From: Monoplex corrugatus
Lineage: Eukaryota; Mollusca; Gastropoda; Littorinimorpha; Ranellidae
Length of the DNA stretch: 64,000 bases
Reading direction: 5' to 3'
Assembly (NCBI GenBank): GCA_030674185.1
Contig: CM060307.1
Coordinates: 50,644,883 to 50,708,882, forward strand
Positions 4,001 to 62,429 of the stretch are shown piece after piece. Each line of letters opens with the position of its first letter. Positions within the stretch are counted from its first letter, which is position 1. Both the position numbers and the translations under genes were made by a program. Under the pieces are notes generated by a model. The model did not search any database. It had not been told where the DNA came from and was given only the letters and a program-made list of their open reading frames with translations.

Positions 4001-7000
4001 TATATATTAACTGCACTATTCAATTAATTGTATTCAAACTTTTTTTTTCATTTCTTAAAAAGCTAATACAACAACAAAAAAACAATAGTCTGAATCACAC
4101 TGATGATTTTAAAAATGTTCTCATGATATCTTTTTTAAGTACTCCATTCAACACTATCCTAAATATTTTCTCCATGACTAATTACAGCTCTGACTATTTT
4201 GCCAATTTTTTAATGAAAAAACAAAACAAAAGTCCCTATTAGCTCTGATAATGCAGGGGTTGTGCATATGATCTTCATATGGGCTACAGTTTTTGGTTCA
4301 GGCCAGTAGGTTCTTTTGAAAGAGCCATGGGTTCGAGATCTGATATCTCAAGTTCAATCCCAGCGTGCAACATTAAATACTGGCCTGTTCACTGCCATCT
4401 CAACATTTCCAACACTCTTGTGGTGTCAGCTTAATATTTCATAGATCTCTCTCACCTCCTCCCATTTCAAGACCTTCACAACACATAGGGTTTTGCACAG
4501 GCCCATGGAGTCAGCCAGATAACAGCTGGCAGATTTGGGTGGAGTGCATATGGAATTGTCTCTGACTGCGACGAATCCCACTTGAACAAACTCCAACCTC
4601 TATTTGAAAAAAAAAAAATCTAGAAAATATTCTGATCAGATCCAGAGGAGTTCTGCAATACGCTTTCTGTCATCATGTTTAAGTGCTCATTTCTTTCTCA
4701 TCCTTAACCCATCCACAAGTTCTCTACAGGAAGCTGACGGACATGGTGAGGGACTGTTCATACTGCTTATAGCCCAGTCGACTACTAGAGCCATATCAGG
4801 GCTAACACCACGTCAAAAATGACAACCGGTTAAGATAAAAGACAACAGTTAAAAACCATGCTCACCATTAACTTTGCAAGTCTAAAATGCAATTAAAGGA
4901 CTGAAAGGGTTCTGCGATAGACAAGCTGTTCGGTATGGCCTACCTGTTGCTGTCCTGTCAGGCCATAGCGCCCCACAATTTTGCGCATTTCCTCTTTCTC
5001 CTTGATATCAGGGTAACACTTCATCATGTACTCCAGTGCGGACAAGTCCAGTTCCAGTTGTTCAGCCAGATGCTGGTGAACACAGGCAACATACGTTGGT
5101 TGATTGTAATTTCTTATGGCATGAGGATTACACAAAAATAGTTATATATTTACACATCAAGGTTATATACATATTCATGTCCTCTTCATCAGCCATACTG
5201 AATGAGTTACATGCACACATAATCACAATATAGACACATACAGATACGCACACACACACACTTACATACACTTTTCGCAATGCAGTACACACCCATTCCA
5301 CTCATGTTGGTTAAAACCCTTTCCCATCCTTAACTGCTAATTGGTGACTTTTTAGCAGAGAAGCCACCTATTGGTGATTTGTAAGCAGAATAAAGTAACC
5401 ACTAGTAACTGACAGTGATCTGCATGGGGTGCACATGCACACACACATGCACAAACATACTCACATAATTATGTACACACACGCATGCATGTACCAGATC
5501 ATTTTGTAATCTGTCACCCTTTTTTGTCTTTTTTGTCAGCTGTTTGGATGGCTGTATAAGGTCAGTTCTGTGAGCAGCGCAGTGTTTGCTTAAGTGCAAG
5601 TGAAAAGGTTGTTTGTCTTTTTACCTTAACAGAAAAGTGACATAAAATAAGAGATAAATTGATATAACATTGAAAAAAATCTGAAGTTTTGGAAATCATA
5701 CCAAATCATTAAAAGAAGGGGTGACAACATGTATGACTAACACAAAAAGCAGAACTGTTCATCTCAATACATGTTTGGCTGTGTACTTACAATGTCAATT
5801 AGCATTATGGCACATGTAGGTCACTCTGTCTCAGCCCGTTTTTAGTGGCTAATGCCTGGTTTTAATGGCTAATACTATTCTCAGTAAAATGAACTGAAAG
5901 TAACCACACAAGGCCTAATGGTCCAGCTCACAGTGCCCGCTGTGTGCATGCCAGAGCTGGTGGAAGTCCTGTTCCAAAGGCCAAACTAAAATTTACTCCC
6001 ACCGAGAACACCATGACAACTTTAAGTGGAGATGGACATTCAAGAGTTTGAGTTTGACATGGTTAAGTAGGCAGTCAAATATGTATTTAGATAAAAAAAA
6101 AAAACACTACTTTTTATTTCATGTGCTTTTTCATCCTCCTTTGGCATATCTATTTGTCTATCTGTCTGTCCGTCTATCTATCTATCTGTTTGTCTATCTA
6201 TCTGTCTATCTACATTGCATATAGAGTTGTATCTGGGGATATTCTAAGTTTCAATTTATCTGAGTTCAACACATACCTGGTGGTATCTCCCAATTTTAAG
6301 ATGAGAATGCCGACGTATCAATCCATCTGTTGGAATCAGCTGAAATAAGCACAGGCATATCAATTCTTTCAAAAGCCAACAACACTTCTTTTCATGAAAA
6401 AACAGCAATACATAATAAGTAAATGAAAACAAAGAAAAAACAACAACTGTATTCTTGTTTGAATGTGAATGATCTTTGGCCAAGCATGAGACTGGTTCCA
6501 TAATTTACAGTAAGATGAAAACGAATAAACCACAGCTATAAGAACAGCCATTCTCAACTTTAAAACAGTATCTGTCCTCTGGAGAAAACTGCCAAAAGTC
6601 GGACAATTCCCACCATACTTGTACCATAAAACATCAAAGAATATTTTTACAACAGAATACACACAGGATGTTTTTACTACAGAATAAAGATAAAATGTTT
6701 TTACTGTTAATACACATAGAATGTTTTTAATACAGAATACAAACAGGACTTTTTTCAAATGTTTAATTAATACAGGGGAAAAAAGTATAGGAGAGAGACA
6801 CAACAGAGAGAAGAGGGAAATGTGGATTTATGAAAAGATAAAGGGATATTTGGAAAGAAATAGATTGACAGAAAGAGAACAAAAGAGAGCAGGTTTATAG
6901 GGATATGAGAGAGCGAGACAGTGAGGAAGATACCAGTGTTTGGGGGGAGGGGAGAGAGCGAGACAGAGAAGAGAGAGAACAAAAGAGAGGAGGTTTAAAG

Positions 7001-7151: not shown

Positions 7152-10100
7152 TGAGGATGATAGGTTTACTTTATACATGAATACTCACAGTACAATAACT
7201 ATTATGCAACTTATACACTGGTCAAGGCTCACCTCTCCACTGATGAGTTTCAGCAATGTGGATTTGCCAGCACCATTGGGTCCAACGAGAGCCACGCGTG
7301 TGTCCAGATCAATGCCAAAGTCCAGGTCCTTGTAGATGTAAGGCTGCAAACAAAGCACACCAAACATTTCAACATTAACACTGACACTTCTAAAACTGCC
7401 TCACTAAAGTCCAATAATAAACACATTTGTTTTATCATGTTAACATCTGGCTAATTCATACAATTTTGTCTTCTCACATGCTTGGAGCTACACTATTCAC
7501 GGCAGTGGGAAAGCATCAGACAATTTGGTCCAAGGTCTTGTGAGGTGGCTGTAAATTCATCAGAGAACTAGGAGATTCTGAAAGTACTTTTTGCTTTATC
7601 TGCATGACCAAGTCAGTCACTATTCAGCATTCTCAAATCTGTCACTTTTTTTACATTTCTCTCGAATGTCTCCCTCTAGAAAGCACTTACTGTCAGTTTC
7701 TTTTTTTCAAAGGGGGCCTGGTGGGAGGGAATGTAGAGAGGTGAACTTAATCTAGGAGATATTCTCCTAGCATGTATGTGTATGTGCGTGTATAGGTGGA
7801 GGGTTGTTTTTTGAAATATTCAGACATTCCTTGAAAAATACTTCTGTCTTCTAAGAGTGTTACAGATTGGAATACCTTTGTTTCATTGTAGCGGAAGCTG
7901 ACTTGCTGCACCATGATGACTGGGGGAGGGATTGTGCCGCAACTTGGGAAGTAAAATGACAAAGTCTGCAACACAAACATTGAGATAAGACATACTGGTC
8001 ACACATGAAACACTGAGAAAGACAAAATAGTCACAAAATGAAAAAAAGAGATAAGACATATTGGTCACACAGAGAAAGACACAATGGTCACACAGAGAAA
8101 CATAATGGTCACACAGAAAAAGACACAATGGTCACACAGAGAAACACAATGGTCACATAGAAAAAGACACAATGATCACATAGAGAAAGACACAAAGGTC
8201 ACACAGAGAAAAACACATCACACATGAAACAGAGAAAAACACAATGGTGACACAAAAAAGACACAATGGTCAGAGAAAGACACAATGGTCAGAGAAAGAG
8301 AAAAAAACAATGGTCACAGAAAGACACAATGGTCATAGAAAGACACAATGGTCACACAAAGACAGAGAAAAAAAACATGGTCAGAGAAAGACACAATGGT
8401 CAGAGAAAGACACAATGGTCAGAGAAAGACACAATTGTCAGACATAATGGTCACACAATGAAAGACACAATGGTCAGACAGACACAACAGTCACACAAAG
8501 AAACAATGGTCACACAAAGAAAGACAATGGTCAGAGAAAGACAATGGTTACAGAGAAAGCCACAATGGTCACAGAAACACACAATGGTCAGACAGAAAAA
8601 GACACAATGATCACACAGAGAGACACAATGGTCACACAAAGATACAATGGTCACACAGAGAAAGATACAATGGTCACACAGAGAGAAACACACGATGGTC
8701 AGACAGAAAGACACAATTATCACACAGAGAGATACAATGGTCATACAGAGAAAGATACAATGGTCACACAGAAAGATACAATGGTCACACAGAGAAAGAT
8801 ACAATGGTCATACAGAGAAAGATACAATGGTCACACACAGAAAGATACAATGGTCACACAGAGAAAGATACAATGGTCATACAGAGAAAGATACAATGGT
8901 CACACAGAGAAATATAGAATGGTCACACAGAAAGACACATGGTCACACAGAGAAAGATAGAATGGTCACACAGAAAAAGACTCAATGGTCACACAGAGAA
9001 AGATACAATGGTCACACAAAGAAAGATACACTGGTCACACAGAGAAAGATACAATGGTCACACACAGAGAAACACACGATGGTCAGATAGAAAAAGACAC
9101 AATGGTCAGATAGAGAAAGACACAATGGTCACACACAGAGAAACACACGATGGTCAGACAGAAAAAGACACAATGGTCAGACAGAAAAGACACAGACACA
9201 GAAACACATGGTCAGACAGAAAGACACAATGGTCAGACAGAAAAAGACACAATGGTCACACAGAGAAAGACAACGGTCACACAAAGAAAGGCACAATGGT
9301 TACACAGAAAAAGATACAATGGTCACACAGAGAAAGACACAATGGTCACACTGAGAAAGACACAATGATCACACAGAGAAACACCCAATGGTCAGACAAA
9401 GACAACGGTCACACAGAGAAAGACACAATGGTCACACAAAGACACAATGGTCATACACAGAAAGACACAATGGTTACACACAGAAAGACACAATGGTCAC
9501 ACAGAGAAAGACACAATGGTCACACAGAGAAAGACACAATGGTCACACAGAGAAAGACACAATGGTCAACAGAGAAAGACACAATGGTCACACAAAGACA
9601 CGATAGTCAGACAGAAAAAGACACAATGGTCAGACAGAAAAAGACACAATGGTCAGACAGAAAAAGACACAATGGTCAGACAGAGAAAGACACAATGGTC
9701 ACACACAGAGAAAGACACAAAGGTCACACAGAGAAAGACACAATACATGGTCACACACAGAGAGACAAAATGGTCAGACAGAGAAAGACACAATGGTCAC
9801 ACACAGAGAAAGACACAAAGGTCACACAGAGAAAGACACAATGGTCACACAGAGAAAGACAACGGTCACACAAAGACACAACAGTCACAAGAGAAAGAAC
9901 CAACGGTCACACAGAGAAAGACACAATGGTCACACACAGAGAGACAAAATGGTCACACACAGAAAGACACAATGGTCACACAAAGACACGATGGTCAGAC
10001 AGAAAAAGACACAATGGTCAGACAGAAAAAGAACAATGGTCAGACAGAAAAAGACACAATGGTCAGACAGAGAAAGACACAATGGTCACACACAGAGAAA

Positions 10101-12700
10101 GACACAAAGGTCACACACAGAAAGACACAATGGTCACACAGAGAAAGACAACGGTCACACAAAGACACAATGGTCAGATAGAGAAAGACACAATGGTCAC
10201 ACAGAGAAAGACACAATGGTCACACACAGAGAAAGACACAATGGTCACACACAGAGAAAGACACAAAGGTCACACACAGAAAGACAATGGTCACACACAG
10301 AAAGACACAATGGTCAACAGAGAAAGACAATGGTCACACAGAGAAAGATACAATGGTCACATACAGAAAGACACAATGGTCACACAGAGAAAGACACAAT
10401 GATCACACAGAGAAAGACACAATGGTCACACAGAGAAAGACAACGGTCACACAGAGAAAGATGCAATGGTCACACAAAGAACACAAGCAGAAAGATACAA
10501 CGGTCACACAGAGAAAGATACAATGGTCACTTAATGGTCACACAATATGCATGTTTATTAAGATCCTGGTTGTCCTACCAGTATTGGCTTATGGAAGCAT
10601 GAAAACGCTGAGCATGCAAGCCCATCAAAGATGGAACATGCAGACTGTGCAGCAACATACCACCTGCACATTCAACATGCATGTGAGAAAAATCATAATG
10701 ATTTAGAAAAAGATAAATATAAAAATAAATATTCCACTTCACTGTGCACTTGATGTGTTCCAACAAGATAAAAGTTGCAATATGTTTACAATATTACATA
10801 AAATAATGCTTTATTACACTCACCTTATCACTTGTGACTTTTTCAGTCAGTCCTCCATCCACCATCTTTTTCAGGGTCTTCTCCTTGCTCTGAGCCTGAC
10901 GGGCCAACTTAGCACTGCCGTGACCAAACCGCGCAATGTAGTTCTGTGTGCATTGTCAAGAAGACACAAAAAGAATGAAATGGCTGTTAATACATCTCCC
11001 AAACTCCTTCATAAAGAAAGAAACATAACAAGAAATAAAGGAAGCATAACAAGAAATAAAAGACACTTAACACACCTTCCAATTCTTGAACTAGGGAAAC
11101 ACAAAAACAGAAAACCTACAATTACTTAGTACACTCAGATAACACCATCCGGACTGCCTTCACTGAGACACCAGAATGAAGATGCAAAGAAGAACAACGC
11201 CCAGCAATGAACAACAGAGAGAAAGAGAACTGAAGGCCCTAAAACACACCTGGATACCATGCAGAAGCAGGTCCACCAAGACTGGAGTAATAGACCATTG
11301 CTGTTCTGCATGCCAATGGTACAATGGGCAATATTCAGCAAAATTAACTTTCATTAATTGCAAACTTGTACAATACGAATTATGCCTCATACTGTAACCT
11401 ACTCCACATCTTAAAAAACGTATCACATGATCTAATGTAACTTAAATAAATCTGAATTTGGATACACAACGTTCATTATAATAACAAAAGCATAAACTTC
11501 AGCATAAATATGAGGACTGACCCGTGAAATAAATGTAACATACAGTGTTCCGTATAGTCGATCCTGTCGTAAGACTTCAAATGAGGAAAGTGGCTGCCTA
11601 ATGGATACCTTATGGGTTTTTCTTTTTGCCAAGGAAGTGACATAACTTTTGGATCAGCCCTCATTATGACAACTGGGACTTTCCTTTTCAAATCAGGAGT
11701 CAGTGTGTGAATATTTTCGCTTCAAGGAGTGTGAACATCATGTCAGACTACAACCACACAGCAGTGCAGGAGTCATGACATTAAAACTCGGCCTTTTTTG
11801 TCATCATTCTCCTGAGTCCAGTCATTTCTCTACGCAAACCAGCACTAACAGCAGCAACTATTTACGTACAAGCTTCAAGCGTCAACAGTTATTGTGTTGT
11901 TCAAAGCCCAGCTGACTGCGCAGAACCATATCAGGGTTATAACCATTTTAAAACGTACACAAGGCATTGAAAACAACGAAAATTATGTATACATATCAAT
12001 GCATTTGCATACATAATCAAAGGATATGCCGCTGGCACTGATCGTTCTGTCCAATTTATCACCTAGGGTTTTAGAAACATTTGAATACAAATGTAAACAT
12101 AAGAAGAACACTAAAACATACACAAAAACTGGCCTAAATTATCTAAAAATGCTTCTGTGCATCACATTACCTTACAACAAAAAAGCACTTAATACATGCA
12201 CCTAGTTTTCAGTCCGAAGAGAAAGCATGTAAGGATTTACAGAACACATACAGATTAATGGACCAGCATGGCAGAAAACAATAAACAGATGACAGAAAGC
12301 AAAGGAGCAAGACAGAAACAAAGAGAATGTCAGAAAAGAGGACATTTCTAGTACAGAATTTCCTGAAGACAGGAATACTATTTATACTGAAAGAGCCCCT
12401 AAAATCCCCACAGGGTGAATATATTCAAGTCTGAATCAACAAGTAAGTACCTATTCACTGTAGCAATTAGTATCAAATAAGTAAGTAGAGTATTCATTAT
12501 ACCAATCAGCATCAAAAATACATGGGTGAAACCTGTCAAAATTAAAAAAACTGAAAGGCCGGGGTCTAGGGGCCGCCAAGGCCCCGGCGGGGTCCAGGGG
12601 GGCGAAGCCCCCCGGCCGAAAACGATTTTTTTGTATTTAAAGACTAATTTTGTGGCCTCTCCTGAATGGAAATTTATAATTTTAATTGCTTTAAAATACA

Positions 12701-12748
<48 letters not shown>

Positions 12749-15700
12749 CGTGCGTTGCGCGCGTGCATGTGTGTGTGCATGCAAATCTCATGGAGACATA
12801 TCAATGACCGAGTGTACAAACAACAGCATGCTAGTGTTCTGAGTGTCACTTGTGTGTTCAAACCTGTTGACTGGCAGCAATATACATTTTTTTTAGTAGC
12901 AACTGTTAATAACAGTAAATGACAAGAAAAAAAAAACTCAGCAATTTTAAACCCAAAAAAAGTTTTTAATTTATTACTCTAATACTCAGTCACCGTGGCA
13001 GGATAATGAGTAGCCTTTTTCTGTAAGCTGACAGCATTTTCAAATGTTTCATTTTTCATTCTATAGTGTGTGATGGAAAGAAGAATTTAAAGCACTCCTG
13101 AAGTAGTATTTCACAACAAACCAAGAACACTATTTTCTCAACATTCAAAGGTAGAAACCATTACACTGCATTTATCACTGCTCCACTGATTCAGTAATTG
13201 TAAAATTCAAAATGAAAGAAACACTGTGTTTTGAATGCCAAAATTGTTGCTGCAGAATGTGCAGAATTCTCACTGCTGGTGAGGGCGCTTAAAAAAATGT
13301 CGGATGTCACCACCACCACCATTATTTCTTTTTCTATTTTGAGCAGTTGGTTTGGTGTTGGTGACAATAGAGGCAGGAGAAGTGACAGTAATTTAAGTTT
13401 GAGTGAGCGACGGAGCTGCGACACATGAACTGGCAAAATAGTGCGCCATGAACGAACCTGTGTTTCCGGTCTCCAAAAAGAAGAGCGCTTTCCACTTCCG
13501 TTTTCTTAACCTGTCGTCTGCTAAACCGTGTTAACGTGCTGAGAACCGCGATTCTTTACTTACGATTTTTTTTCTTTCAAATTAAAAAAAACAAAACGGC
13601 AGCTTCCGTCTGCCATAACTGAGAAAAAAACGGATTTCCGTCCCCAGACGGCACAGTTTCACCCATGAAAATACAAGACACACATTTGTATCTAAATCGT
13701 AACCAGGAGTCAGTGTGTGAATATTTTCGCTTCAAGGAGTGTGAACATCATGTCAGACTACAACCACACAGCAGTGCAGGAGTCATGACATTATAACTCG
13801 GCCTTTTTTGTCATCATTCTCCTGAGTCCAGTCATTTCTCTACACATCCAACAACAACAGCAACTACAAGCTTAAAATGTCAAACCATTCCATTTTCAAT
13901 CAAAGACAAATCCACTGTAACAAGAAAGAATGAAAGGAACACATTTTTTTCAATCTTAACATGATGAAAAAATGGTATCCCTGCCACAGTTTCTCAGCTG
14001 AGAATAAATCTATTATCATCACAAAATACAGTCATTTTCATTTTGCAATGATCTTATCATTCTCTGAGCTTCAACCAGGTTTATTAGAACTGCTTCATGC
14101 TGTTTGTATTTCAACACCTTGCAGTCCTCACTGTATCTACAAACTTCCTACAGGAGGGAGCTAGTGGATACTATAACCGAGTTACTGTTGTTTAAAGCCC
14201 AGTCAACTACACAGAGCCATATCAGGGCCATAGCCGCTTCCAAACCTAGGAAACTTCAACAAGAAAAAAAAAAAGAAAAGAAAATAAAGTACATGTATAT
14301 CAATGCATTCGCACACATAATCTAAGGATATGCCCCTGGCGTTGACCACTCCGTCCAATTTATTGCACAGGGGATTTAAAAACCACACCTGAATACAAAT
14401 TTAAGCATAATTAAGGACACCAAAACATATATACAAGCGGGCATAAATTACCTGAAATTGTTTGTTTCCGCATATCTCACCTTCCTAGAGCCCAAAATGC
14501 ACTTAATACATGTACCCAATTATCAACCATAAGAAGAAGTATGTAGGACTTCATCGAACACATACAGGTGAATGGATCAGCAAGGTAGAAAATAGGATGA
14601 AATGACATAAAGCAAAGGAATAAGGCAGAAAGAAAGAAAGTAACAGAAAAGAGGAAATTTAATAATAATAATTACAATATTTATATAGCGCAAAATCTTG
14701 ACAAATTTCTAGAATTTCCACCAGGTGGGGATACTATTCATACTGAAAGAGACCCCTGGCATACCCACTGAGGGCATGAACTCGTAAAAAAATTATGCAG
14801 TCCCCCCAACCACCCCAATGGTACCCACCTTCATGTGAGCGATCTGATCCTGCTCCCACTTGTACCTCTTGGCCTGGTTCTCCAGCAGCTCCAGACGTGT
14901 CTGAACATAGCTGTCGTAGTTTCCCTGGTACACGAAAATAGGAAGGGTCAGTAAATTCTGTACTGTGGTCAGAAAATTGGTGTTTTTACTATTCCGCTGC
15001 CGATATTGCATTAACATGACAGACAACACAAAGGAAACAAGCCTTGCAATAATTCAATCATCTTGTAAGAGACAGGATGAAGCTAGGCGGTCACATAATG
15101 ACTGGTTCTTTATGCAAACAAAGCTTTGATTCTTGAAAAGTGCAGTGTTCAACATTTCAAACAAAAGTGACAAAACATATTTCAGTACAAGCTTCACCCT
15201 CTTAAATACATACATAAATGATTCCCTGTGCACCTATTTTAAAAAACAGCAAAAACAACAAACTTTAATATTTTCCATCTTTCACCAGCTTTGGAAAATG
15301 GCGTTCAGTGCTTGCGCTCAAAAAACAAAAACAAAAAAAAACCTGATTAAAAAACACACACACACACACGCACAGAGAGCAAAACAAAACAAGGATATAA
15401 AAATACACAAAGTATTTGAAAAATAAAATCACATCCAACTTTTTCACAGCATGACAAATGAGATCTTAACATTCATGTTCATTCTGACAAGCTGAATACA
15501 AAGTTCAATGACAAAAAGAACACACACACCAACGGAGTAGCATAAGTTAGTTCTGCATGTCCGTGTGCATGCACAAGTTATGGTGTAGAAAATCATTCCA
15601 CCAGTCACACTTACTCCGTAATACTGCAATTTTTTCTGATGCATGTGGATGATACTGTTGCAGACTCCATTCAGAAAATCCTGAGAATGTGAGATCACCA

Positions 15701-18567
15701 CCAGAATGCGAGGGTAACTGAAAACAAGCCATCACACACATATTATGGACATGAAATAAGAAAATCACAAGCAAAATTAAAACACCTCTAGAAATGGAAC
15801 TGGAATTGATACATGCTCCACCCAAACCTATAAACACCTCTAGAAATAGAACTGGAATTTGTTTCATCAGGATTAATGGTGATTGGACGATACATGTTCA
15901 ACCCAAACCTATAAACACTTTAGAAATAGAGAGACTGTGAATAAATTTGGTTTTCATCAGGATTAATGGTGATTGGACGATATGATACATGCTCAATCCA
16001 AACCTATAAACACTTCTAGAAATGGAACTGGAATTTGTTTCATCAGGATTAATGGTGATTGGACGATACGATACTTGCTCAACCCAAACCTATAAACACC
16101 TCTAGAAATGGAACTGGAATTTGTTTCATCAGGATTAATGGTGATTGGACGATACGATACTTGCTCAACCCAAACCTATAAACACCTCTAGAAATGGAAC
16201 TGGAATTTGTTTTATCAGGATTAATGGTGATTGGACGATACGATACTTGCTCAACCCAAACCTATAAACACCTCTAGAAATGGAACTGGAATTTGTTTAA
16301 GAAGGATTAATGGAGATTGGACCATACTATACAGGCTCAATTCAAACCTGCTATCAATAATTATCTGACACGTGAAAATCATGTTACATGAAAACCTATA
16401 GAAACATCTTACAATAGTTTTTTCCTTCTATTTTACATCACTGAAAATCGAACGAAATAAATCATTCAACCATCAGCTCAAACAACATATTTGAAAAGTA
16501 TTCACATCGTCAGCTCAAGCAATATAACATTATTCAATGTTGTGTACTATAATAACATCAGCAAAAATGGCAATAATGTTTATTGCATACTACTGTTGAC
16601 ACCAAAAAAATGTTAGTAATATTCTACCTGTTCTCTCGCATGAAGGCTGATTTCTAAGAATCAGTTTCAGTCAAGACAGAAATAAGTATAACAATAATAA
16701 CAACAACAACATTCCCAACAATAACAACAACAAAAATAATACTAATCACAACAGTAACTACAATAATTTTACTAATTCTATTCTATCTGTATAGTGAAAA
16801 CTATCAAAGAATGCCCATTAATTTTATACTGTACAGATCATTATTACATTGCATGAAATAAAGAAGGGGAAAGGGGGGAGGTACAGGGTACGTACATGAA
16901 TAAAGAATGAATCATCAAGAAAACAATAGTTTTTGAATGATACAATTTTTTTTTATATACTTTCATTGTTGTTTAAAGCCCAGCCGACTGTGCAGAGCCA
17001 TATCAGGGCTATAACCGCTTCAAAACACACAAAACTTCAACAGGAAAAAAAAAAGAAAAGAAAATTAAGTACACCTATCAATGCACTCGCGCACATAATC
17101 TAAGGACATGCCCCCGGCGTAGGACCATTCCGTCCGATTTATCACACAGGAGAGATTTAAAAAACACACCTGAATACAAATATAAGCATACATAAGGACA
17201 CCAAAACATATATAAAAACAGGCATAAATTACCTAAAATTGCTTTCGCATATCTCATCTCCTTAGAGCCAAAAATGTACTTCATACATGTACCCAATTAT
17301 CAATCCGAAGAAAAAGTACGTAAGACTTTATCAAAAAAAATACAGGTGAATGGACCATTAACGCAGAAAATATGTAGAAATGACAGAAAACAAGGCAACA
17401 AGGCAGAAACAAAGAGAGTGACAGAAAAGAGGAAATTTCTAGCACAGAAATTCCAGAAGGTGGGGATACTATTTATACTGAAAGAGCCCCCAGCAACCCA
17501 ATGGGGGGGGGGGGGGGGGATGATACAAATAAAACGTCTCATAAATCGTCTGGTAAGTACAAGTCTTTCGTACACACACACACTCAGAGTTCAGATACAA
17601 CATGACCTGATCTGGAAAAGTCAAAAGTACAGATCTCTGCATTTTTGCAGATGTTTTTAAAAGACTGTTCTGCTGTGTTGGTTTTATTTTGAAAGTGAAC
17701 CTGCTTTGCTTTAAAGACATTATGAGGGAGCTCCATAGTGTCGGGCTACAAACATGGAAGGATTTCTTTGCACAAGACAAGAAAAACATGACAACTTCTT
17801 TATTATATAAGACAAGACAACACAAGTCAAAATTCCTTATTTTCGATGGCTATAAAGTATGCAACGAATGCTTCTAAAAGTAGACAGAGAGAACCCAGGT
17901 ACTGTGATCAGAGAAACTCCTCAGAACTGGGCGCTTCAGAAACGTTTGCAGGGTGTAGGGAGTTCTGCAAATATGTTGGCAGAGTATTCAATATTCAAAA
18001 GTACACACGGAAAGCAAAGCGAGAAAACTTTTAGCTTATGTTCTGCTTTGACAGACTACTACTACCAACCTGACACAACCAAGTCTTCAAAAAACAAGAA
18101 AGCAAGCCAGTTTACTTTTTCAACTCCTCCTCAAGCCAGACGCAAGCGTTCAAGTCAAGATGGTTTGTGGGCTCGTCCAGCAAGAGAAGTGAAGGACGCA
18201 GATACAAAGCACGGGCAAGAGCAATGCGCATACGCCAACCTCCTGAGAAGTTCTTCACCTGCAACATAATAGGATAGCTGAATAACACTGTTCACATAGC
18301 AAAAAAAGAGGAAAAAAGGAGAATAAAAAACCCATGAATACACAGAGAGAAAAAAAAAGGGGTTTAGTGGTGCAGTAGGCCTACTATGGTGACATCTTCA
18401 CACGACAGCAACATTTATGTGAAAAAAATTCTTCTGTGACAAAACAATGAATCCAATCCAACAAGATGAAATCTCGCAACGTCAGTGTTTAAACTTCTGT
18501 GATGAAAACTATCACAACATGATCATATTCTGTTTAAACTTCACAGAGTATATTTGCTTTTTGCCCA

Positions 18568-28344: not shown

Positions 28345-28506
28345 TTAACCCTTTGACTTCTGCACCCTGCCCACCAGCATTCTGCATTGTCAACCATGCT
28401 AGCAAAGCAAAAACTTAACAGTTTGACACCCTCACACTATTCACCAGCAGGTGAGGGAGTCAAAGAATTTAGTTTTTGTAGTTTGGTGCAGGAGTTGAAA
28501 GGTTAA
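28345..28506. mobile_element. TTAA-ended fold-back MITE
   Basis: Runs from TTAACCCTTTGACTTC to GAGTTGAAAGGTTAA with an internal GCTAGCAAAGCAAAAACTTA and a central CACCAGCAGGTGAGG hairpin. Member of the family described for 37887-38078. Confidence 0.75.
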
Positions 28507-28820
28507 TGATCAGTTAGTGTTGCAGTATGGCAAGTATTTCAGACAAGCATGTTACGTTTCACAGCAGCCCCAGTCTGACTGCTTGTACCAGAAATGATAC
28601 TTTTGACAGCACTGAAAGTTCTTGTTCATAGCTTAGAACTTTCTTAAACTTGAGACTTCAGAATGTTTTACAACTCAAGGACAGTGGCTTCTGGTCCCAT
28701 TTGATCTGTCTTATAGCTAGTCCTTCGGGTCAAGCCCCCATAGCTGGCTGGCTGGCTCTTGTAGGCCTAGTATTTGTAATAGATAGAGCTGTGGACTCAG
28801 GATCTGATGTGTTTAGTTCT

Positions 28821-32195: not shown

Positions 32196-61341
<29,146 letters not shown>

Positions 61342-61368
61342 GTTGGTGACTGGGGTTCGTGTCACCCT

Positions 61369-61677
61369 TTTAACCCTTTGACTCCCCAAACCTGAACATT
61401 GGTTGAGATGATCAAAGTCATGCTCTTTTCTTTACCAGATTCTTCCAGAGTCTTATCCAAGTCTGAAAAGGAAAAGACTCAAAACATCAGCATTGTCTTT
61501 CTGAGATTAATCTTTTTCACTTCCTCACTTCACTCATGCTGGCAAAGCAAAAACTTAACCGTTTGTTTCCCTCACCCCTATCCACCAGCTTCCTGCAGGA
61601 AGCTGGTGGATGGGTGAGGGAGGCAAAGGGTTAAGTTTTCGCAGTTGGTGGATAGGGCGCGGGAGTCAAAGGGTTAA
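61369..61677. mobile_element. TTAA-ended MITE carrying an inverted fragment of the host gene (exon 16)
   Basis: The left tip TTAACCCTTTGACTCCCC (61369) and right tip GGGAGTCAAAGGGTTAA (to 61677) are those of the MITE family. The internal ATGCTGGCAAAGCAAAAACT segment (61537 on) and central CAGCTTCCTGCAGGAAGCTG hairpin are also present. Between tip and internal segment, where other copies hold a short CACCCTATCCACCA stretch, lie about 140 bp homologous to the reverse complement of 57137-57275. See the separate entry. Confidence 0.8.
61391..61530 (-). pseudogene. Inverted, diverged copy of USP40-like exon 16 and its flanks
   Basis: Plus strand reads CCTGAACATTGGTTGAGATG, then CAAAGTCATG, GATTCTTCCAGAGTCTTATC and CTGAAAAGGAAAAGACTC, then CTTTTTCACTTCCTCAC. 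These are, in order, the reverse complement of exon 16 (57204-57274) and its upstream intron back to about 57137. The donor side (CAG|GTTAG) is at its left edge. The middle of the exon copy is altered (TTTTCTTTACC replaces TTTTCAATGCC), so it cannot encode the same peptide. Confidence 0.85.
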
Positions 61678-62429
61678 AAACCTCACCCTGTTCACCACAC
61701 ACACACACCACCATGATTCACATGAACCTAACCCTAACCTTTCATTTCGTCACTCTGTCCACCAACTTCATAACTCTGCCTCATAACTGAACTACAGACA
61801 TTCGTTTCCTCACCCTTTACTCAAGCATGCACCAAACGCATGCCACCAGTAGGTCTGGTTCTTCCAGACCTCTTTGATCTCCTTTATAAATGCCAACGAT
61901 TCGAGAGGGGAGGAATGCTTTCACCCTGTCCATTGCGTCAACCACTACTCAGCATGCTGGACCCTGAGATATTTCTCCCGTAGGGGATTTCTTGTCTCTC
62001 TCATTGAGGGATAGTCAAGGACAGTCCAGCAATGACCATATGGTATTGTTTCTCAGAATTGGCCCCAAGATCTAGAAGGAATCGGTGACAGCCTCCTGCA
62101 GAGAAGCCCCGAGCTCACAAAATTAGAACTCTTCCTTCCCCAGTTGCATTCTACCGCCCCTCCCTGTCAGGGATGCTCTGAAAGCAGCCCACTGATGATG
62201 GGAATTCACTTTCAACTGCCAGTATTTTTGAGACCCCCATGTCTCCTCCACAGACACATCTCCTTAGTGGCAGCCAGTGCCACTGTCTTTGGCTCCAGGC
62301 ACCTAGCAGACCAAGACATGAGATCAATCCCTCCATCTGATTGTTAAATTCGGGATAAATTGCATATGGTAGAGTGTATGATGCTGAAAGAAAAAAGTTT
62401 TCATGTAAATTCCTGTTTAGCTAGTCTCA
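61678..62429. other. USP40-like intron 17, no feature recognised
   Basis: No exon, array or element is supported here beyond short degenerate MITE-like pieces (CCTAACCTTTCATTTCGTCA at about 61731). Confidence 0.4.

Follow-up and report, generated by a model that had tools for sequence, protein, structure and literature searches.

Gene and repeat content of the window

The analysed stretch of 64,000 bases (hereafter the window) has a GC content of 38.9%, contains no N and carries on its plus strand an intron-containing gene for a protein with a ubiquitin carboxyl-terminal hydrolase (UCH) domain. Against Pfam, UCH was found in two of six open frames and also in the joined catalytic exons, and in the PDB the catalytic part matches ubiquitin hydrolases, with USP7 as the best hit. 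The host gene is presumably USP40-like, and the organism an animal, in all likelihood a marine invertebrate. Exon 56290-56380 ends in phase 1, the in-frame exon 57204-57274, which has a length of 71 nt and is the source exon of the chimera described below, begins in phase 1 and ends in phase 0, and exon 61190-61341 starts in phase 0. With an incomplete exon model as query, the source-exon region gave a best PDB match of only E 0.34 and, in Pfam, ubiquitin-like matches at E 0.043 to 0.13, far below the cut-off, while the corrected source-exon model gave no Pfam match. Searching for homologues of the gene region with a 467-residue query yielded 323 candidates, none of them at E ≤ 0.001; this search took proteins of 0.55 to 1.75 times the query length, and relatives of more than about 800 residues were outside its reach.

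Several repeats are present in the window apart from the MITE family treated below. CA microsatellites are plentiful, and a minisatellite of ~23-bp units at 8000-10600 leaves a 494-residue open frame (8918-10402) which is probably non-coding. A dispersed repeat of ~450-525 bp is found at 11895-12399, 14186-14660, 16967-17490 and, inverted, at 49370-49813, these being 67-84% alike. Two near-palindromes at 40099-40377 and 32589-32844 have arms of 133 and 117 nt that are 88% and 90% complementary, respectively, the former having a relative at 45189-45519; in the comparison across the window, neither of the two matches the chimera's MITE.

A nested TTAA-ended MITE family

Allowing for up to three mismatches, 29 matches to the tip of the MITE family are present in the window, whereas 100 shuffles contained 0.17 on average. 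Including the chimera, the family is found at 13 places, those at 4691 and 14112 being weak and an array at 45930-46181 not being counted, and at six of the 13 (28345, 37887, 43172, 52849, 55657 and 61370) TTAA is present at both ends. The array consists of ~42-bp MITE-arm units in tandem and is reminiscent of the tandem CMITE arrays of corals. The family is nested, with an 80-bp TTAA palindrome sitting within a larger TTAA-ended palindrome. In the consensus, the halves of the outer element join as GCAAAAAC-TTAA-GTTTTTGC with the inner element at the centre, and these flanks of the inner element suggest one original TTAA. A version of the outer element lacking the inner one (GCAAAAACTTAAGTTTTTGC) was not found in the window, the sole match with three mismatches lying inside an existing MITE copy, and empty-site relatives of the joined flanks were likewise absent from the window. 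Neither do the stretches between neighbouring copies (28505-28817 and 43267-43319) have a second copy in the window. No match was obtained in phage records, and the tip pattern occurred in none of the viral contigs and none of the genome contigs of the collections searched. The stand-alone inner palindrome (Table 1) starts about 20 bp past a likely donor, gtaagt at 55638 (exon 55479-55637), and the chimera, starting 28 bp past the donor of exon 61190-61341, is also located very near a splice donor.

Judged by its TTAA ends and CCCTT tips, the chimera's family appears to fit the piggyBac-type MITEs, in agreement with the first-pass annotation, which had arrived at this class from the TTAA borders and the CCC...GGG tips. 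In the relevant passages of PMC10813416, CCCTT adjoining TTAA is given as the most conserved motif of piggyBac tips, and a CC[C/T]T tip motif is described in those of PMC2872659; the tip found here, TTAA-CCCTTTGACTCCC, conforms to both and is free of mismatches at either end of the chimera. The family has presumably been moved by a piggyBac transposase. Kolobok T2-MITEs have the same TTAA target, but differ in their tips, for which the passages of PMC6004289 dealing with them give AGG or RR; a Kolobok origin was rejected on account of the CCC...GGG tips.

Structure of the chimeric copy

The family member in the intron following exon 61190-61341 is a chimera of MITE and host gene sequence (Table 1). 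It opens with TTAACCCTTTGACTCCC and closes with the exact reverse complement of TTAACCCTTTGACTCCC, this tip being found with 0 mismatches at 61370-61386 on the plus and at 61661-61677 on the minus strand, and the perfect inverted match between the two ends extends over 19 bp (61368-61386 versus 61661-61679). Hence, the two tips, whose relatedness the first-pass annotation had presupposed, are identical. Of the outer left arm, only this tip is clearly left before the insert, and the two bases CA at 61387-61388, between the left tip and the insert, are filler or mutated arm. The part from 61530 to 61677 matches the family model, for which five other copies were used and the chimera was left out, at E 8.9e-37, and the tips of the inner palindrome are recognizable at 61555-61571 (plus strand, three mismatches) and 61618-61634 (minus strand, one mismatch). 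With identical tips and this model match, the description of the element as one composed of the tips, internal segment and central hairpin of the family holds. Just outside the chimera, weak MITE-arm-like matches of 4.9 and 5.6 bits are present at 61723-61773, perhaps representing a further decayed copy.

Table 1. Features of the chimeric element, its source and related copies in the window.
Feature	Position	Strand	Remarks
Exon directly upstream of the element	61190..61341	+	donor gt at 61342; open frame
Chimeric MITE copy	61370..61677	+	308 bp, TTAA to TTAA; mismatch-free tips at both ends
Left tip, TTAA-CCCTTTGACTCCC	61370..61386	+	17 of 17 bases as in the chimera-free consensus
Insert, reverse-complement copy of 57136-57277	61389..61529	-	88.7% identity over 142 columns, E 5.9e-48 (search within the window)
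Rest of outer left arm	61530..61554	+	GCAAAGCAAAAAC at its end; consensus from position 51, by eye 46
Central hairpin, i.e. inner TTAA-bounded palindrome	61555..61634	+	both tips matched
Outer right arm, GTTTTCGCAG...GGGTTAA	61635..61677	+	consensus matched to its end
Source segment	57136..57277	+	exon 57204-57274 with 68 bp of the upstream and 3 nt of the downstream intron
Possible decayed MITE arm	57091..57122	-	14 bp from the source boundary
Sister copy with the best score; insert absent	37887..38079	-	
Full-length sister copy, without insert	55887..56078	+	
Stand-alone inner palindrome	55657..55724	+	TTAA at both ends; E 9.9e-10

The insert aligns to the source segment with a score of 202, while the highest score in 1000 dinucleotide shuffles was 32. 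The resemblance of the left arm to a reverse-complemented exon with its upstream intron is therefore far beyond chance, as had been claimed, and the coordinates had to be adjusted, from 61391-61530 to 61389-61529 for the insert and from 57137-57275 to 57136-57277 for the source. The latter lies 4.1 kb upstream of the chimera in the same gene, and the copy is inverted. Insert and source show 15 mismatches in 141 aligned bases (10.6%) and one real gap. In the arm, the insert displaces ~28-33 bp (consensus 18 to 45 or 50) that are kept in the sister copies, with a junction homology of 0-1 bp as judged by eye, the divergence of ~10% blurring the junctions. Read in gene sense, the splice acceptor, the open frame and the donor GT are all retained in the insert, and these splice signals and the frame run antisense to the gene. 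Within the frame, 5 of 23 residues are changed (MDKTLEESGIENNMTLFISTNVQ versus LDKTLEESGKEKSMTLIISTNVQ). With the exon borders taken at 57204-57274, the exon part differs from the source at 9 of 71 positions, and the intron part shows 6 mismatches in 67 (9.0%, interval 3.4-18.5%). Six of the nine exon differences are found within the 15 bp of 57229-57243, a cluster that could result from a multi-base event or from a paralogous source. Beyond exon and chimera, the insert sequence was found at no third place in the window, and when 11 exon stretches (some with approximate borders) were compared with the window, no second copy was obtained except that of the source exon.

A possible decayed arm beside the source exon

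The first-pass annotation had also postulated a decayed MITE arm at 57089-57157, just upstream of the source exon. Of this, only the part at about 57091-57122 aligns well with the family, while the surrounding match (57158-57091), obtained when scanning the window with the chimera-free model, stays below the inclusion threshold at 7.3 bits (E 0.12). This score was equalled somewhere in 7 of 40 block-shuffled windows, and one reversed window peaked at 4.1 bits. At least 11 sub-threshold matches were obtained in the scan; among those listed, eight are at known family places and two at 61723-61773. Two scoring schemes were applied in pairwise comparisons with 989 background windows: the score of the arm was reached or exceeded by 12 or 61 of these and that of the full consensus by 19 or 24, the numbers being 418 or 493 when the arm was taken in its other orientation. 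A chance match at this one spot, picked after the fact, would be unlikely, and a decayed MITE arm next to the exon serving as helper in the event is plausible, albeit as a weak proposition.

Origin of the chimera

Since the source includes intron, DNA and not mRNA was copied, and a retroposed exon was rejected because of the intron present in the insert. The sequence has most likely passed from the gene to the MITE, as the exon is in phase and the exon and the chimera are the sole places in the window with the insert sequence. For the opposite direction, with exon 57204-57274 having been exonised from MITE-borne sequence, the possible MITE-like arm, separated by 14 bp from the border of the source segment, might be adduced. 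However, the 12 other listed family places in the window are without the insert sequence and the exon is in phase with both of its neighbours, on which grounds this derivation of the exon was rejected as hardly credible.

As to the event itself, in-place templated repair of the MITE arm, with the gene's own upstream exon as inverted template, is the explanation we prefer and consider reasonably probable, because the only chimera known from the 64-kb window lies in the source gene. A nested piggyBac-type MITE resident in the intron after exon 61190-61341 would have suffered a break in its left arm, possibly aided by the palindromes of the MITE itself, and would have lost about 28-33 bp. The gap might then have been mended with the upstream exon of the same gene, 4.1 kb away, serving as template for a short inverted copy, and the copied segment would have been rejoined with little or no microhomology. 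The nearby template, the junction homology of 0-1 bp (by eye) and the replacement of 28-33 bp are all in line with such a repair, as is the position of the insert between an exact tip and the MITE remainder, where it replaces consensus 18 to 45/50. We infer that the copying took place in situ rather than before transposition and that exon 57204-57274 itself was the source.

The main rival to in-place repair is Pack-type capture followed by transposition, and on this point our view of the mechanism departs from that of the first-pass annotation. In the rival scenario, the exon would have been acquired elsewhere or earlier and the chimera then transposed as a unit into the intron by means of its TTAA ends. 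With its TTAA tips intact on both sides, the chimera would be able to move. The host gene fragment is located in the arm interior between intact TIRs, which is the Pack-type arrangement, and among eight copies compared, that of the chimera has diverged least in its MITE part (4.9% versus 6.6-20.1% from the typed consensus). Against this, there is one copy in the 64-kb window, the insert is absent from all other places there, and landing at most 4.1 kb from the source would be coincidental unless hops are local, making this route rather unlikely. In particular, one known copy, its location in the source gene, its inverted orientation and a junction homology of 0-1 bp favour repair over capture. 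As for timing, the MITE part of the chimera differs from the chimera-free consensus at 8 of 133 positions (6.0%, interval 2.6-11.5%) and from the typed consensus, which was made after seeing the chimera, at 7 of 142 (4.9%). The ratio of insert to MITE divergence amounts to 1.5 to 1.8; if copying had coincided with insertion, an insert divergence as high as double that of the MITE would be expected. Considering the wide intervals, similar ages of insert and MITE appear compatible with these values, and the intervals are compatible with copying before, at or after insertion.

A point against the gene's own exon as source is the higher divergence of the exon part (9/71) compared with the intron part (6/67), though a coding exon would be expected to change more slowly; the confidence intervals of the two overlap. 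Because of this difference, some room is kept for a paralogous exon copy elsewhere in the genome, instead of 57204-57274, as template, to which the changes in 5 of 23 residues and the concentration of six of the nine exon differences within 57229-57243 would also point. Such a source is nevertheless distinctly improbable, as the flanking intron matches too (6/67 mismatches), requiring a rather recent gene duplicate, and a source in the same gene is simpler; the homologue search, covering proteins near the query length, yielded no relative that could serve to polarise the changes. Even less probable is a constellation without any single element, in which a solo MITE tip on one side and a truncated MITE on the other would by chance flank an inverted exon duplication. 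Tips are indeed dense, with 29 in 64 kb, and weak arm-like pieces are present outside at 61723-61773, but the outer tips of the chimera are exact, have the correct orientation and enclose the missing arm stretch, and from the tip density the chance of a right-oriented tip within 150 bp would roughly be ~3%.

Possible effect on the transcript

One transcript would hold both the exon and its antisense copy. Their potential pairing over ~142 nt would cover the 3' splice site, the whole exon and the donor GT, and skipping of the source exon would shift the frame because of its 71 nt. For the pairing of 57100-57330 with the element, -222.4 kcal/mol was computed, compared with -90.7 kcal/mol on average and -105.2 kcal/mol at the lowest for 100 mononucleotide shuffles of the element. 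However, self-folding would compete strongly, since the element and the exon stretch reach -142.3 and -55.8 kcal/mol on their own, and the net gain from pairing is small. That the antisense copy pairs with exon 57204-57274 in the same pre-mRNA, thereby regulating its skipping or directing A-to-I editing, is a highly doubtful proposition, and the open-licence literature searched yielded no relevant paper on antisense exon copies pairing in pre-mRNA.

Comparison with known systems

The chimera represents a clean, small and readable case of a host exon entering the arm of an animal transposon, with the source 4 kb off. Should a second copy exist, the element would rank as a mobile piggyBac-type MITE carrying an exon; if there is no second copy, the lone MITE-exon chimera may be a local repair scar and not countable as Pack-type capture. 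Gene-fragment capture by a piggyBac-type MITE had been called unusual in the first-pass annotation, a fair remark inasmuch as no report of such a MITE with a host exon was recognised among the papers listed from the open-licence literature, judged mostly by titles and the opening parts of abstracts. The acquisition of host sequence by MITEs (transduplication) is treated as known in the pertinent passages of PMC2872659.

Closest in structure are the coral CMITEs, for which the same source (PMC2872659) describes, in the passages concerned, TTAA ends, CCCTTT tips in several families, small size and tandem arrays, in all of which they resemble the family found here. In CMITE-IN, likewise, one TTAA element is situated inside the TTAA of another TTAA-ended unit (PMC2872659). 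The coral elements, however, are ~100 bp long, their conserved core is of unknown origin and these passages describe no gene exon within them, and the repeats around the inner element of CMITE-IN are direct, whereas they are inverted here and one copy additionally carries an exon of the host gene. With the Pack-TYPE transposons, which PMC8903248 in its relevant parts reports from plants, the chimera shares the character of a non-autonomous DNA transposon with host coding DNA, and the passages on gene capture in the review PMC13317346 concern plants as well. In contrast to the plant Pack-TYPE elements so described, the case presented here involves an animal gene, TTAA/CCC tips, one copy in the window and a source within the same gene, 4 kb off. 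With regard to the preferred in-place repair, the passages of PMC8421209 and PMC11724301 on templated insertions at double-strand breaks and on MMBIR present such insertions as an established repair outcome, in which a short and possibly inverted copy of another locus is placed at the break. The insert found here corresponds to this pattern, differing in that a MITE arm would have been the site of the break, that the copy is old, having diverged by ~11%, and that the repair is read from sequence alone.
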